A DNA stretch of 45,823 bases from an uncultured Saprospiraceae bacterium (GTDB taxonomy: Bacteria; Bacteroidota; Bacteroidia; Chitinophagales; Saprospiraceae), in assembly GCA_938041325.1 (NCBI GenBank), contig CALIAG010000056.1, positions 1 through 45,823 on the forward strand, in the 5' to 3' direction. This document shows, piece after piece, positions 35,526 through 45,823 of the stretch. Made by a program: the position numbers and the translations under genes. Position 1 is the first letter of the stretch; every line of letters begins with the position of its first letter. The notes under the pieces are model-generated. The model had not been told where the DNA came from. It made no database searches and saw only the letters and a program-made list of their open reading frames with translations.

Positions 35526-36719
35526 ATGGATAAAATGAGTTTTGGGTCTTTCGTTGTGAAAGGGCCACAAGAAAATCGGACGATAAAACCACATGTATTG
35601 CCTATATATGCCACTTCTTCATTTGTTTTTGAGGATATAAACCAAGGTATAGATATCTTCAGTGGGAAAGTGGAAGCCCATAAATATTCGCGGTATTCTA
35701 ATCCTACTTGTGATGCGGTTGCTGACAAAATTGCAGCGATGGAAGCGTATGGACTGGACATTGAGGCTTCTGCTGTTTTGGTTAGTTCTGGAATGGCGGC
35801 CATATCAACTTTAATGTTAGGCACTTTAAAATCAGGCGATAAGATTTTAACGCAAAGTAATCTTTATGGTGGTAGCACGGAGCTATTGACTAAGATTATT
35901 CAGCCGTTTGGCGTAGAGGTTATTTTAAGTAATCTCAATGATTTAAACCATCTTGAAGATTTGGTAAAAAAGGATGCTTCTATCAAAATGATTTATTTAG
36001 AAACTCCCGCCAATCCAACTATGGCTTGTGTTGATCTCGAAGCGATTGCCAATATTGCTTCAAAATACAATTGCACTACGGCAGTGGACAACACATTTTG
36101 CACTCCTTACATTCAGCAGCCTTTCGCACATGGAATCGATTATGTCATTCATTCTACTACAAAATTTTTGAATGGACATGGGAATGGAATTGCCGGAATC
36201 ATCGTAGGAAAAGATCCTGAAGCGATGAAGAAAAAGGTTTGGAATGCCATGAAGTTAATTGGGACCAACTCGAATCCATTTGATGCATGGTTGATCAATA
36301 ATGGCATGAAGACTTTGGAACTGCGCATGCAAAAACATTGTAGCAATGCTCAGACTGTTGCGGAATACCTTGAGAAACATCCAAAGGTCAGCCAAGTGAA
36401 TTACAATGGTTTGCCATCGAATCCATATCATGCTTTGGCTAAAAAACAAATGAAAAATGGTTTTGGAGGAATGTTGAGTTTTGAATTAAAAGGAGGATTA
36501 CAAGCGGGAATTGACATGATGAATGCCATAGAATTTTGTACCCTCGCTCCTACTCTCGGAGATGTGGATACTTTGGTTTTGCATCCAGCTTCTTCATCTC
36601 ATATAAATATTGACAAAGCCGTTAGGGAACAGAATGGGATTTCAGATGGGCTGGTTAGGTTGTCTATTGGTATTGAAAGTGTGGAGGATATTATTGGGGA
36701 TTTGGATCGGAGTATTTGA
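35526..36719 (+). CDS. Cys/Met-metabolism PLP-dependent lyase (gamma-lyase type)
   Basis: A 397-residue fold-type I PLP enzyme of the transsulfuration family. The Schiff-base lysine is Lys213 in H-S-T-T-K-F-L-N-G-H-G. S-S-G-M-A-A-I-S (87-94) binds the phosphate, Tyr114 in L-Y-G-G-S stacks over it and D-N-T-F-C-T-P-Y (188-195) carries the pyridine-N aspartate. The C-terminal S-S-S-H segment and R-L-S-I-G-I-E close the fold. The residue matching Cys116 of methionine gamma-lyase is Gly, so it need not be a methionine gamma-lyase; cystathionine gamma-lyase, cystathionine gamma-synthase or O-acylhomoserine sulfhydrylase are open. Single gene; heptad repeats begin 7 bp after its stop. Confidence 0.85.
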   Translation: MDKMSFGSFVVKGPQENRTIKPHVLPIYATSSFVFEDINQGIDIFSGKVEAHKYSRYSNPTCDAVADKIAAMEAYGLDIEASAVLVSSGMAAISTLMLGTLKSGDKILTQSNLYGGSTELLTKIIQPFGVEVILSNLNDLNHLEDLVKKDASIKMIYLETPANPTMACVDLEAIANIASKYNCTTAVDNTFCTPYIQQPFAHGIDYVIHSTTKFLNGHGNGIAGIIVGKDPEAMKKKVWNAMKLIGTNSNPFDAWLINNGMKTLELRMQKHCSNAQTVAEYLEKHPKVSQVNYNGLPSNPYHALAKKQMKNGFGGMLSFELKGGLQAGIDMMNAIEFCTLAPTLGDVDTLVLHPASSSHINIDKAVREQNGISDGLVRLSIGIESVEDIIGDLDRSI

Positions 36720-36726
36720 GTGGTCA

Positions 36727-36782
36727 GTATTTAGTATTTAGTATTTAGTATTTAGTATTTAGTACTTAGTACTTAGTACTTA
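36727..36782. repeat. Solo array of eight 7-bp repeats (GTATTTA/GTACTTA)
   Basis: Five perfect copies of GTATTTA (36727-36761) are followed by three of GTACTTA (36762-36782). A single inverted unit, TGAATAC, lies at 36793-36799, and TTAGTAT (36780-36786) can pair with ATACTAA (36797-36803). The array lies between two convergent genes and has the same unit, and the same copy number, as the array left of the S23-family gene at 45171-45226. Confidence 0.9.
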
Positions 36783-36806
36783 GTATAGCGTCTGAATACT
36801 AACCAA

Positions 36807-39443: not shown

Positions 39444-39464
39444 CAATGTTATTTATTTTGTAAG

Positions 39465-39573
39465 TTAGATGGTTAGACTGTTAGACGTTAGATTTTTAGA
39501 CGTCAGGCGCCTAGATTTTAGATGCTTAGACTTTTCAAAATCATCTACTTTCTAAACAGTCTAGAAGTCTAAC
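39465..39573. repeat. Degenerate TTAGAC/TTAGAT short-repeat cluster
   Basis: About eight units built on TTAGAx with 7-9-bp spacing run from 39465 to about 39531 (for example TTAGATGG, TTAGACTG, TTAGACG). They are followed at about 39551-39573 by inverted units (TCTAAACA, GTCTAGAA, GTCTAACC). GGTTAGACT near 39470 can pair with AGTCTAACC near 39566-39574. It lies between the tonB stop and the folC-proximal terminator, on the transcribed side of tonB. Confidence 0.75.
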
Positions 39574-41557: not shown

Positions 41558-42238
41558 TTAAACCGTTGGTTCTTGCAGTAAATCCATAAAATCTACAGTG
41601 GAACGTTCCATTTGGAAAACGACTTTTTCTACACTAGAAACCAAGAAGTTATAAGCAACAAAGGCAAAAATACCGATGGCCAAACCGAAAGCGGTCGTTA
41701 AAAGAGCCTGGTAAATACCTCCTGCTAAAACATCAGGTGTTACATTTTGTGCATTTGCCATTTCATAAAAGGCGAGGATCATACCTGTTACCGTTCCAAA
41801 GAATCCAATCATTGGAGCAGCTCCAGCAATACTGGCTAATCTCGAAAGGTTTTTTTCTAACTTAAAAACCTCTAGGTTTCCAACATTCTCAATCGCAGCA
41901 TCAATATCTCTTAAAGGCTTGCCGATTCTCGCCAATCCTTTTTCAACCATTCTCGCTACAGGAGTATCAGTTGTTTGACACAATGCTCTTGCAGCAGGAA
42001 TATTACCTGCAGCTACATTCGCACGAATGTTGTTCATAAAGCTTTCATCAATCTGACCAGCTTTTTTTAATGTCAATAGCCTTTCTACAAAAATGTATAA
42101 TGCAATGACGGATAGAATTAAAAGGATACCAATTACAGTTAAACCGATAGGTCCACTTTTGAAAATGATATCGAATAAACTCTGAGTCGCTACTGCATCC
42201 TCAGCAGGTTGGAAAAACAATAAAAGATTTGAAAACAT
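41558..42238 (-). CDS. exbB: ExbB/MotA/TolQ-family proton channel protein
   Basis: A 226-residue inner-membrane subunit of the TonB-energising motor. Three transmembrane helices (about 30-52, 133-155 and 175-200) are separated by the large cytoplasmic loop typical of ExbB. Family motifs are P-M-I-G-F-F-G-T-V-T-G-M-I in helix 2 and A-L-L-T-T-A-F-G-L-A-I-G-I in helix 3. It is the first gene of the four-gene minus-strand operon; its promoter must lie in the 475-bp divergent region but no clear -7 match was found on that strand. Confidence 0.92.
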   Translation of the reverse strand: MFSNLLLFFQPAEDAVATQSLFDIIFKSGPIGLTVIGILLILSVIALYIFVERLLTLKKAGQIDESFMNNIRANVAAGNIPAARALCQTTDTPVARMVEKGLARIGKPLRDIDAAIENVGNLEVFKLEKNLSRLASIAGAAPMIGFFGTVTGMILAFYEMANAQNVTPDVLAGGIYQALLTTAFGLAIGIFAFVAYNFLVSSVEKVVFQMERSTVDFMDLLQEPTV

Positions 42239-42713
42239 AAGAGTGGTTATTTAGTTTTTTCAGTTTTGTATGTCTGTTTAGTTAGACTTGCAATTTTTGG
42301 GAAGAAAGATTCAGTTTTTGCAAGTATTCTTATCCCAGAGCAAACAAAATATGGGATAAAAACGTATTTAAAAGCGCCAAATTATCTTTGGGCGATTAAA
42401 ATTACAGTTTTTTGTTAAATAAAAGTCTTTGCCCCATATAAAATTCATTTTTAATGTGTAAAAAGCTTGAATATTGATAAATTGAAGAGCACAATAAGGC
42501 TTTAGACCCCAAATCTTCCCGAAGAAATATGGTTTTGGTACCTTTTCTAAGGCATTTTCAAATGAAAGGATAGAATGTAAACGCTTTTATTAAAGTGGTT
42601 TTATAAAGTGCATCTGAACAAAACTTTCGCTTCATTTAATTCGTTAATTTTGTACATTTGCCCCATTAGCGAAAATTCGCTTTACTATTTTTATAATTTT
42701 CAAACTCAAATCA
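42239..42713. other. 475-bp divergent intergenic region (exbB / fadN)
   Basis: This region separates the exb-tonB operon from the fadN gene. The fadN side has two full -7 matches and a 13-nt motif shared with the TonB receptor leader. The exbB side has no full TAnnTTTG on the minus strand. Apart from these, no ORF, RNA gene or repeat was recognised. Confidence 0.4.
42645..42660 (+). promoter_or_regulatory. Tandem -7 promoter elements of the fadN-type gene
   Basis: TAATTTTG (42645-42652) and TACATTTG (42653-42660) are two adjacent full matches to TAnnTTTG. TTTC at 42625-42628 is a candidate -33 element, 16 or 24 bp away. Immediately downstream is TTAGCGAAAATTC (42666-42678), inside the palindrome AGCGAAAATTCGCT, at the predicted start of transcription. 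Confidence 0.45.
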
Positions 42714-45164
42714 ATGATTGACTTAACTGCTGAATCCCCAGCCCAAAAATCACAAGATTCGAAAACCAAGCCTCCACGAAGAATACGGAAAGTTGCTGTT
42801 CTTGGATCAGGAGTAATGGGATCAGGCATCGCCTGCCATTTTGCAAATATTGGATTGGAAGTACTGATGTTGGATATCGTTCCATTCAACCTTTCAGATG
42901 AAGAAAAACAAGATCCTATAAAGAGAAATAGTATTGTGAATGGTGCTTTAAAAGCTGCACTCAAATCAAGACCTGCTCCACTTTATGACAAAGGATTTGC
43001 CAGTAAGATTCAAACGGGGAATTTTGATGACGATTTATCTAAAATAGCGGATTGCGATTGGATTATTGAAGTGGTGATTGAAAGATTAGACATTAAGCAG
43101 CAGGTTTTTGAAAAAGTAGAAAAACACCGCAAGAAAGGAACCTTAATTACATCAAATACTTCGGGCATTCCTATACATATGATGTTGGATGGAAGAAGTG
43201 ATGACTTTAAAAAGAACTTCTGTGGAACTCACTTTTTCAATCCACCGAGATACCTCAAACTTTTAGAAATCATTCCTACTTCTGAGACAAGTCAAGAGGT
43301 TATTGACTTCTTCATGCATTATGGAGATGTCTTTTTAGGTAAGAACACCGTTCTCGCAAAAGATACGCCTGCATTTATTGCCAACCGTGTTGGTGTTTAT
43401 GCAATGGCAAAAATATATCAACTCACCACCGAGTTAGGCTTGAGCATTTCTACTGTTGACAAATTAACCGGTCCTGCAATAGGAAGACCTAAAACAGGTA
43501 CTTTTCGTTTAGGTGACTTGGTTGGACATGATACCAGTGCTAAAGTTATTCAAGGTATAAAAGACAACTGCCCGGATGATGAGCAAGCAGGTACTTTTGA
43601 AGTTCCTAAATACATGGATTTCTTATTAGAAAATAAATTTTTAGGAAATAAATCTGGACAAGGTTTTTATAAAAAGACCAAAGAGAAGGATGCAAAAGGT
43701 AGAAAAGTTATTCTAGAGTTGAATTTAGAAACTTTAGAATACGGCCCTTCTGCACGACCTGACATTCCAAGTCTCGCTGCAGTAAAGCAAGTAGATTCAT
43801 TGGAGAAGAAAGTTCAATTTTTCTTTAAAGCGGAAGATAAAGGTGGAGAATTGGTAAGAAGATCATTACTAGGACTCTTTGCCTATGTGTCGAACAGAGT
43901 TCCAGAAATTTCTGACAATATATATGGTATAGACAATGCTGTAAAATCAGGTTTCGCTTGGGATGTTGGACCTTTCCAGTATTGGGACATGGTTGGTGTA
44001 AAAGAAGGTATTGAAATGGCAGAAGCTCAAGGCGAGAAAATCTCGGATTGGGTAAAAGAAATGGCAGCAGCTGGTCACAACAAATTCTATAAAACAGAAA
44101 ACGGTGTACGCAAGTATTACTGTGTTGAAAGCAAGAGCTATAAAGAAATGCCAGGTGGCAAAGAATTTATTGTTCTAGATGCTTATAGAGAACAAGCTCC
44201 AGTTTTCAAAAACGACGAAATAGTTTTACACGATATTGGCGATGGCGTTCTTTGTTTGGAATTCACTTCTAAAATGAATGCTATTGGAGAAGGTATTTTA
44301 CGAGGCATTAACGAATCCATTCAGATCGCAGAAGAAGGCGACTGGAGAGGATTGGTCATTGGTAATAATGCAACCAACTTTACGGTAGGTGCAAACTTGA
44401 TGATGATCGGAATGTTTGCCTTCCAGCAAGAATTTGAAGAGCTGGACATGGCCATCAATTTATTCCAACAAACTACAATGCGTTGTAGATACTCCAGCAT
44501 TCCTGTAGTTGCTGCAACACAAGGCTATGTATTTGGCGGTGGTTGTGAAACCATTATGCACTGCGACGCTGCAATGTGCGCTGCTGAATCTTACATTGGA
44601 TTAGTAGAAGTTGGCGTTGGTTTGATACCAGGTGGTGGCGGAACAAAAGAATTCGCTGTCAGAGCATCTGATTCCTTTTTCGAAGGAGATGTTCAAATTC
44701 CGACCTTGATCGAAAAGTTTAAAACGATAGCAATGGCTAGTGTCGCTACCTCTGCAAGCGAAGCCTACAAGTTTGGCTATTTGCAAAAGGAAAAAGATCA
44801 TGTAGTCATGAATGCTGGTAGAAATATCGCTGAAGCGAAAAAGAAAGTGATAGAATTGGCTCCGAACTATACGCAACCTGTTCAAAGAAAAGATGTAACC
44901 GTTTTAGGTAGAACAGGTTTGGCTGCTTTATACGTTGCTGCAAATGAATTGCAACTTGGAAATTATGCTTCAGAGCATGATATTCTAATTGCTAAAAAAG
45001 TTGCCTATGTACTATGTGGTGGCGACTTGACTGGCACACAAAAAGTCTCTGAGCAATACTTGCTGGATATAGAAAGAGAAGCATTCTTAAGTTTGTGTGG
45101 AGAACAGAAGACATTGGAACGGGTACAGCACATGTTGCAGACGAATAAGCCATTGAGGAATTGA
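42714..45164 (+). CDS. fadN: 3-hydroxyacyl-CoA dehydrogenase/enoyl-CoA hydratase (FadN-type)
   Basis: An 816-residue bifunctional beta-oxidation enzyme with the dehydrogenase first and hydratase last, the order of Bacillus FadN rather than proteobacterial FadB. The NAD loop is L-G-S-G-V-M-G-S-G (30-38), T-H-F-F-N-P-P contains the catalytic His, and the following dehydrogenase C-terminal domain contains A-F-I-A-N-R-V-G. The crotonase domain (about 500-710) has G-Y-V-F-G-G-G-C-E for the oxyanion hole and G-L-V-E-V-G-V-G-L-I-P-G-G-G-G with the catalytic Glu. Its thiolase partner begins at 45689, but the pair is separated by a repeat-flanked S23 gene. Confidence 0.92.
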   Translation: MIDLTAESPAQKSQDSKTKPPRRIRKVAVLGSGVMGSGIACHFANIGLEVLMLDIVPFNLSDEEKQDPIKRNSIVNGALKAALKSRPAPLYDKGFASKIQTGNFDDDLSKIADCDWIIEVVIERLDIKQQVFEKVEKHRKKGTLITSNTSGIPIHMMLDGRSDDFKKNFCGTHFFNPPRYLKLLEIIPTSETSQEVIDFFMHYGDVFLGKNTVLAKDTPAFIANRVGVYAMAKIYQLTTELGLSISTVDKLTGPAIGRPKTGTFRLGDLVGHDTSAKVIQGIKDNCPDDEQAGTFEVPKYMDFLLENKFLGNKSGQGFYKKTKEKDAKGRKVILELNLETLEYGPSARPDIPSLAAVKQVDSLEKKVQFFFKAEDKGGELVRRSLLGLFAYVSNRVPEISDNIYGIDNAVKSGFAWDVGPFQYWDMVGVKEGIEMAEAQGEKISDWVKEMAAAGHNKFYKTENGVRKYYCVESKSYKEMPGGKEFIVLDAYREQAPVFKNDEIVLHDIGDGVLCLEFTSKMNAIGEGILRGINESIQIAEEGDWRGLVIGNNATNFTVGANLMMIGMFAFQQEFEELDMAINLFQQTTMRCRYSSIPVVAATQGYVFGGGCETIMHCDAAMCAAESYIGLVEVGVGLIPGGGGTKEFAVRASDSFFEGDVQIPTLIEKFKTIAMASVATSASEAYKFGYLQKEKDHVVMNAGRNIAEAKKKVIELAPNYTQPVQRKDVTVLGRTGLAALYVAANELQLGNYASEHDILIAKKVAYVLCGGDLTGTQKVSEQYLLDIEREAFLSLCGEQKTLERVQHMLQTNKPLRN

Positions 45165-45170
45165 TGAGAA

Positions 45171-45226
45171 GTATTCAGTATTCAGTATCTAGTACTTAGT
45201 ATTTAGTATTTAGTATTTAGTATTTA
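45171..45226. repeat. Left heptad array of the S23 cassette (eight 7-bp units)
   Basis: Eight contiguous heptads begin 6 bp after the fadN stop: GTATTCA twice, GTATCTA, GTACTTA, then GTATTTA four times. Heptads 2-6 match, in the same order, the reverse complement of the right-hand array at 45640-45674 with about five or six differences in 35 bp. Confidence 0.9.
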
Positions 45227-45260
45227 ACACTGACTACTGAGTATATTAAGAAATGAGACT

Positions 45261-45617
45261 ATGAGTCATAACTTTAAAGAGCTAAATGTTTGGAAGAGGG
45301 CTAAAGACTTAGCAGTCCAAGTATATTTGGTAACAAAACAATTTCCAAAAGAGGAAATATTTGGATTAACAAATCAGATTAGAAGATCTAGCGTTTCAAT
45401 TTCATCAAATATTGCAGAAGGTTGTGGACGAAATTCAGTAGCACAGTTGAACAATTATTTGAACATTAGTATGGGTTCAGCATCTGAGCTTGAAACACAG
45501 CTTTTGATTGCAATTGAAATTGGTTACGGCAAAAAGGATCAACTCACTTCTTTAATTAAAGAAGTTTCTGAAATTCAAAAAATGATAAATGGTCTTCAAA
45601 GAAGTTTAAAAAAATAA
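45261..45617 (+). CDS. Four-helix bundle protein, S23/IVP family
   Basis: A 118-residue protein of the family first seen inside 23S rRNA intervening sequences of Leptospira (TIGR02436/PF05635). It shows the family pattern throughout: F-K-E-L-N-V-W-K-R-A at 5-14, F-P-K-E-E-I-F-G-L, Q-I-R-R-S-S-V-S-I-S-S-N-I-A-E-G near 39-54 and G-S-A-S-E-L-E-T-Q-L. Homologues form pentamers of basic four-helix bundles, and the DGR protein Avd is related. There is no 23S rRNA here. It lies between inverted heptad repeats in a beta-oxidation operon. Function unknown. Confidence 0.88.
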   Translation: MSHNFKELNVWKRAKDLAVQVYLVTKQFPKEEIFGLTNQIRRSSVSISSNIAEGCGRNSVAQLNNYLNISMGSASELETQLLIAIEIGYGKKDQLTSLIKEVSEIQKMINGLQRSLKK

Positions 45618-45639
45618 AGTATAACAATCAATTTAGTAT

Positions 45640-45674
45640 CGAATACTAAGTACTAAGTACTCGATACTAAATAC
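45640..45674. repeat. Right, inverted heptad array of the S23 cassette
   Basis: Five contiguous units, CGAATAC, TAAGTAC, TAAGTAC, TCGATAC and TAAATAC, are reverse complements of the left-array heptads. The array lies between the S23-family stop (45617) and the thiolase ATG (45689), so it also occupies the leader of the thiolase gene. Confidence 0.88.
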
Positions 45675-45688
45675 TAAAATTTAAGAAC

Positions 45689-45823
45689 ATGGAAGCATAT
45701 ATAGTTAAAGCATATAGAAGTGCAGTTGGTAAATCAAAAAGAGGTGGTTTTAAAAACTACAGATCAGATGATTTGGCAGTGGACGTAGTCAATTATTTAA
45801 TGGATAAAACGCCAGAACTCGAT
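45689..45823 (+). CDS. Acetyl-CoA C-acyltransferase (thiolase), 5' part
   Basis: Only the first 45 codons are in the window. The N-terminus, M-E-A-Y-I-V-K-A-Y-R-S-A-V-G-K-S-K-R-G-G-F, matches the start of FadA/thiolase-family acyl-CoA thiolases, including the R-x-A-V-G-K segment; the active-site Cys lies beyond the end. It would cleave the 3-ketoacyl-CoA made by the fadN product. The gene is open at the right edge. Confidence 0.82.
   Translation, partial: MEAYIVKAYRSAVGKSKRGGFKNYRSDDLAVDVVNYLMDKTPELD

Follow-up and report, generated by a model that had tools for sequence, protein, structure and literature searches.

The question raised by this locus is why a small gene, enclosed by two inverted arrays of seven-nucleotide repeats, should lie between fadN and its thiolase, and whether the gene and the arrays belong together. 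The window, by which we mean the whole analysed stretch of 45,823 nucleotides, is one contig (C56) of the genome of an uncultured Saprospiraceae bacterium (6.3 Mb, 578 contigs, 91% complete). In keeping with this family, two relatives, G123 and G073, have S23 sequences identical to those on MAG contigs labelled Saprospiraceae. The upstream host gene (42714..45164, plus strand, an open reading frame of 816 aa) encodes a fadN-type 3-hydroxyacyl-CoA dehydrogenase/enoyl-CoA hydratase and has homologues in 61 of 61 relatives; the name FadN is our assumption from knowledge of the family and from the preliminary description of this DNA. The downstream host gene (45689..45823, plus strand) is the start of a thiolase gene truncated at the contig end, recognised by a junction translation that is conserved in relatives. 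Between the two, the preliminary description had seen eight heptads, an S23-family gene and five inverted heptads, and this picture was reproduced by TRF, a pattern scan and profile searches. The left arm (45170..45226, plus strand) consists of eight AGTAYYY heptads (TRF: period 7, 8.1 copies) and begins 5 bp past the fadN stop codon, the gene ending at 45164. The right arm (45635..45678, minus strand) holds five inverted heptads of the same type, read on the minus strand as AGTATTT, AGTATCG, AGTACTT, AGTACTT and AGTATTC. With at most two mismatches, AGTAYYYAGTAYYYAGTA is matched 20 times in the window against 0.05 matches expected. The sole gene between the arms is S23 (45261..45617, plus strand, 118 aa); its four-helix-bundle product is a member of the S23/IVP family, scoring above the cut-offs of both PF05635 (E=1.1e-39, 135.4 bits vs 33.8) and TIGR02436 (1.6e-38, 131.3 bits vs 24), and the whole unit points in the same direction as the fadN-thiolase operon.

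The unit is sited between two protein genes and not within an rRNA gene helix: no rRNA match was obtained in 42000-45823, an Rfam search returned nothing near gathering scores and PADLOC matched no anti-phage defence model. The genome has a second S23 gene (L002, G000:C550:3898-4209, minus strand). Its flanks too are inverted repeated arrays, with a different unit of 25-26 bp containing TTCGGTTTTCGAATACC.

S23/IVP genes are widely annotated as 'four helix bundle protein' without a function, and the arrangement of their flanks turned out to be general. We compared the 300 bp upstream of a gene with the reverse complement of the 300 bp downstream and took a score of 16.5 as the pass threshold; the window locus scores 29. 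Within the family, 52 of 73 S23 genes pass this inverted-flank test, as against 5 of 105 control genes from the same loci (Fisher 6e-22), with median scores of 20.5 and 11.0, respectively (p=1.6e-20). The same answer came from named genomes across phyla (Bacteroidota, Chlorobiota, Nitrospirota, Acidobacteriota, Verrucomicrobiota, Gammaproteobacteria and others): 52 of 84 S23 genes pass compared with 8 of 116 controls (1.6e-17), and only 9 pass when the flanks are compared in direct orientation. Among the high-scoring controls, two are S23 genes missed by the search profile (L125, L215) and two are REP-flanked Y1 transposases. The latter (L112, L154) are of the RAYT type and have typical inverted REPs, which were caught by the same flank test. 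On cyanobacterial plasmids the arms are plain by eye in most of twelve S23 genes; about a third of S23 genes fall below the arm threshold, and a search for S23 in IMG/VR or phages gave no confirmed match.

Around S23 genes of many phyla, the arms keep a fixed polarity, period and copy number. The G-rich strand lies on the left, with G exceeding C in the left arm of 105 of 110 armed loci; of 111 armed loci, 76 have their best lag at 7 or 14 and 19 at 8 or 16, and the median number of copies per arm is 5.1 and 4.9. The similarity of the units is 0.75 between the two arms of one locus, 0.40 when the wrong strand is read and 0.45 between loci. The repeat unit is thus common to both arms of a locus, on opposite strands, and differs between loci. 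The left array starts at a median of 0 bp from the upstream stop codon (15 bp or less in 64 of 92 loci), and the S23 gene shares the direction of both its neighbours in 109 loci and opposes the two of them in 9. As a separate observation, comparison of L142 with L340 indicates that an arm of the element seems to reach into the last codons of cas10 and to alter the cas10 C-terminus.

Such arms can be read in terms of RNA or of protein. One would argue that the unit is an RNA intervening sequence, whose arms pair in the operon transcript so that RNase III cuts the stem and frees the S23 message. The window arms would indeed form an RNA duplex of -44.5 kcal/mol (shuffles: -16.6 +/- 3.7), the excess of insertions in the direction of the surrounding gene pair (109 vs 9) would suit a transcript-borne stem, and the rRNA intervening sequence of Coxiella has a 28-bp terminal stem that is cut by RNase III (PMC4990558). 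However, the nine antisense insertions are not what such a stem would predict, and a stem requires neither a 7-8-bp period nor a G-rich strand that is always on the same side. The preliminary description had regarded the arms as an ordered long inverted repeat that might be maintained as a stem, and here our data disagree with it: right arms with permuted heptads align equally well in the window (p=0.76), and the order is conserved at p<=0.05 in only 1 of 79 loci. A block-shuffle that apparently favoured colinear arms was discounted, as its alignments had been pre-selected and it was hence biased. Nor do the arm mismatches show any excess of the G.U type that would be the signature of RNA wobble (203 vs 214). 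Because heptad order is unconserved and there is no G.U bias, a protein that recognises a repeated motif fits better than a stem maintained for pairing; likewise, the constant core and variable spacers of the units suggest a repeated motif for protein binding rather than a stem that is maintained. We keep the intervening sequence under consideration because the arms can pair, but we regard this reading, in which the arms exist for the sake of RNA pairing, as unlikely.

With a dN/dS of 0.03-0.12, S23 is under purifying selection. Two homologues of solved structure, 2gsc and 2rld, contain five chains each, and the Xanthomonas protein is described as a homopentamer in work cited in PMC4990558; five heptads per arm fits a pentameric S23 and proves nothing. 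The unit type follows S23 protein identity only above 60% identity. A specificity code valid over all loci was accordingly rejected, no stable recognition code being found.

The notion that the S23 gene travels as a small cassette together with its arms was supported by pairs of empty and occupied plasmid sites that are 90-98% identical. Arms and S23 gene come and go as one insert, because the empty relatives have no arms and the occupied ones have both. The plasmid L141 carries an armed S23 gene, and L327-L329, with 96-99% identity in the surroundings of the site, do not. The sequence is AAAAA-GTAAT-[insert]-GTAAT-TAAC where the site is occupied and AAAAA-GTAAT-TAAC where it is empty, which gives a 5-bp target site duplication (TSD), GTAAT. 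Comparison of L139 with L335-L337 gave a second one, TTCTA (read against L337). L136, L137, L142, L133 and L135 have empty relatives too, all devoid of the arms of the S23 element, although at L341 a different solo array is present. Clear empty sites were thus seen at seven plasmid loci and a clear TSD at two of these only; a scan of 92 older loci showed no excess of short direct flanking repeats (p=0.33), and the 5-bp duplication therefore rests on two cases. Other copies are incomplete: the one in L326 has decayed, the one in L331 has arms but lacks S23, and on the Nostoc N6 plasmid pNPM1 (L338, ~776-950) a 175-bp armed element lacking S23 interrupts an S23 gene and has 83 related places on 40 cyanobacterial plasmids. 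The cas10-cmr3 junction of a CRISPR operon, which is the S23 site in Picosynechococcus PCC 7003, is occupied by a Uma2-family endonuclease gene on the plasmids of Synechocystis PCC 7338 and PCC 7339 (NZ_CP054307.1, NZ_CP063660.1).

At the fadN-thiolase junction the evidence for empty sites is on the family level and comes from other genera than that of the window. Across 30 family genomes the gap is in most cases empty, with a length of 2-116 bp; in several genera it is occupied by S23 genes that have different repeat units (L041, L051, L069, L070, L074, L079), and in L042, L043 and L055 there are arrays and no S23. The claim that the cassette may insert outside rRNA is supported, the junction being empty in most relatives. 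The preliminary description had also named the pattern that would speak against a cassette, that is, no empty junction anywhere and other S23 genes without arrays; we looked for it and found empty junctions and an array-flanked second S23 gene, so the cassette was not refuted. In L037 (G015) the place that S23 takes in other genera is filled by another small ORF, to the left of which are TTGAGAGG-type repeats. On the S23 tree the genes at the fadN site require about 9 label changes and those at gmk-nadD 1, the labels coming from a simple motif search in which a few false assignments are possible; therefore the fadN-thiolase junction was probably colonised several times. Further recurrent S23 junctions, the genes being named from conserved motifs, are the split metH halves, gmk-nadD, thiolase-acyl-CoA dehydrogenase and PDH E1-E2.

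Arrays of the same kind are also found alone. The window contains a solo AGTAYYY array of 8-9 heptads without S23 at the 3' end of a PLP-enzyme gene (36711..36786, plus strand). Elsewhere in the window (39464-39503), an intergenic tandem array of a different 8-bp unit (GTTAGACT) lies just outside a folC-like gene. In the window genome the AGTAYYY unit has 278 matches, with none in a reversed control; S23 is present at one of the array sites of this genome, which number at least 20. Four consecutive units are matched 151 times in this genome, 11 times in G085 and 0 or 1 times elsewhere among 100 genomes. Similarly, TCAGGNN arrays are frequent in G001, G030, G022, G087 and G079, whose S23 arms carry TCAGGNN, and absent from 91 of the 100 genomes. 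The dispersed solo arrays therefore carry the genome's own unit.

Alternatively, slippage could have produced the arrays as intergenic repeats of the host, and S23 genes would drop into them or acquire them later. The abundance of solo matches, mostly without S23, points in this direction, as do the heptamer arrays without S23 in cyanobacteria, Xanthomonas and Beggiatoaceae (PMC4692102, PMC4679880). However, the near-identical empty sites hold no arrays and the occupied ones hold both arms, which moreover are inverted and have a common unit at each locus. Intergenic arrays of 7 or 8 bp are also about 8 times rarer in genomes without S23 (4 in 0.60 Mb, vs 35 in 0.63 Mb of S23-rich genomes; random samples of eight genomes per group, unmatched for genome size and assembly). 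Slippage of host repeats is already weakened by these data and appears to us distinctly improbable.

Taken together, we consider it rather probable that 45170-45678 is a mobile S23 element with inverted heptad-array ends. Such an element would consist of an S23/IVP gene bounded on either side by an array of about five repeats of 7 or 8 bp, the two arrays being inverted, and in the window it would have settled beside the fadN stop codon, reading along with the operon. An S23 oligomer may bind the arrays, each subunit taking roughly one heptad core, and thereby mark the ends of the element; the solo arrays and the armed copies without S23 may be its non-autonomous derivatives. We know of no catalytic site in S23, and for this reason the cutting and joining enzyme would act in trans or be derived from the host.

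A candidate for this enzyme is a Y1 transposase (IS200/RAYT-type) that would mobilise S23 elements in trans, in the manner proposed for RAYTs and REPs. Once genome size is corrected for, the numbers of S23 and Y1 genes are correlated (partial rho 0.34, p=5e-4), and 36 of the 40 genomes with at least four S23 genes have a Y1 gene; the other four S23-rich genomes do without one, however, and the Y1 genes found carry their own REPs and not heptads. In IS200-type movement 5-bp target duplications are not expected, and those observed here are unlike it. We thus hold a Y1 partner to be very improbable. Still further down we place the idea that S23 acts like Avd, the protein of diversity-generating retroelements (DGR), with a reverse transcriptase in trans: S23 has a weak profile match to Avd/bAvd, but a match to RVT_1 is absent from the window genome, at 91% completeness, and from 17 of the 40 S23-rich genomes. 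A reverse transcriptase of the RVT_1 type is thereby largely refuted as the partner, and we find this idea scarcely credible.

If the S23 element is mobile in the way we favour, a wider reading offers itself, which we put forward tentatively as possible and no better than that. The S23 elements would be a separate pan-bacterial class of mobile elements that rely on a small, ring-forming and non-catalytic protein to specify their heptad-array ends and that target the ends of genes; they would spawn the dispersed STRR, GGGNATC and TAACTGA repeats, long listed but never accounted for, and the intervening sequences of rRNA would be one special niche. The rule found in the surroundings of the S23 genes gives the S23/IVP family a testable role as an end-binding or mobility protein of an element. 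It also suggests a possible origin for the dispersed heptamer arrays of cyanobacteria, Xanthomonas and Bacteroidota, which have been on record for decades, and it reveals a small element that has settled time and again beside gene ends in core-metabolism operons with no visible damage. We found no paper in the open-access literature that joins S23 genes to heptad arrays, and novelty is claimed provisionally.

Among the nearest known systems, Avd of the diversity-generating retroelements (PMC10053308) shares with S23 a distant profile similarity and the four-helix bundle; in contrast to Avd systems, there is no reverse transcriptase, template or variable repeat at the window S23. The 23S rRNA intervening sequences with an S23/IVP open reading frame, as in Leptospira and Coxiella (PMC4990558), have the same protein family, complementary arms enclosing the gene and an insertion without an obvious transposase. 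Contrastingly, the S23 element lies between protein genes by stop codons and not in rRNA helices, its arms are locus-specific arrays of 7/8-bp units, and solo copies are dispersed. The RAYT/REP system resembles it in having a single gene within inverted repeats and many non-autonomous repeat copies in the genome, but the S23 element has no Y1 (HUH) transposase, and its arms are tandem heptads whose unit varies by locus, not a REP hairpin. Finally, the STRR and heptamer repeats, such as GGGNATC in Xanthomonas and Nostoc (PMC4692102) and TAACTGA in Beggiatoaceae (PMC4679880), are likewise 7-bp tandem intergenic arrays with inverted pairs and genome-specific units near a neighbouring open reading frame. 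A term search of both papers showed no reported association with S23, whereas the arrays described here would be the ends of an S23 element or of its derivatives.
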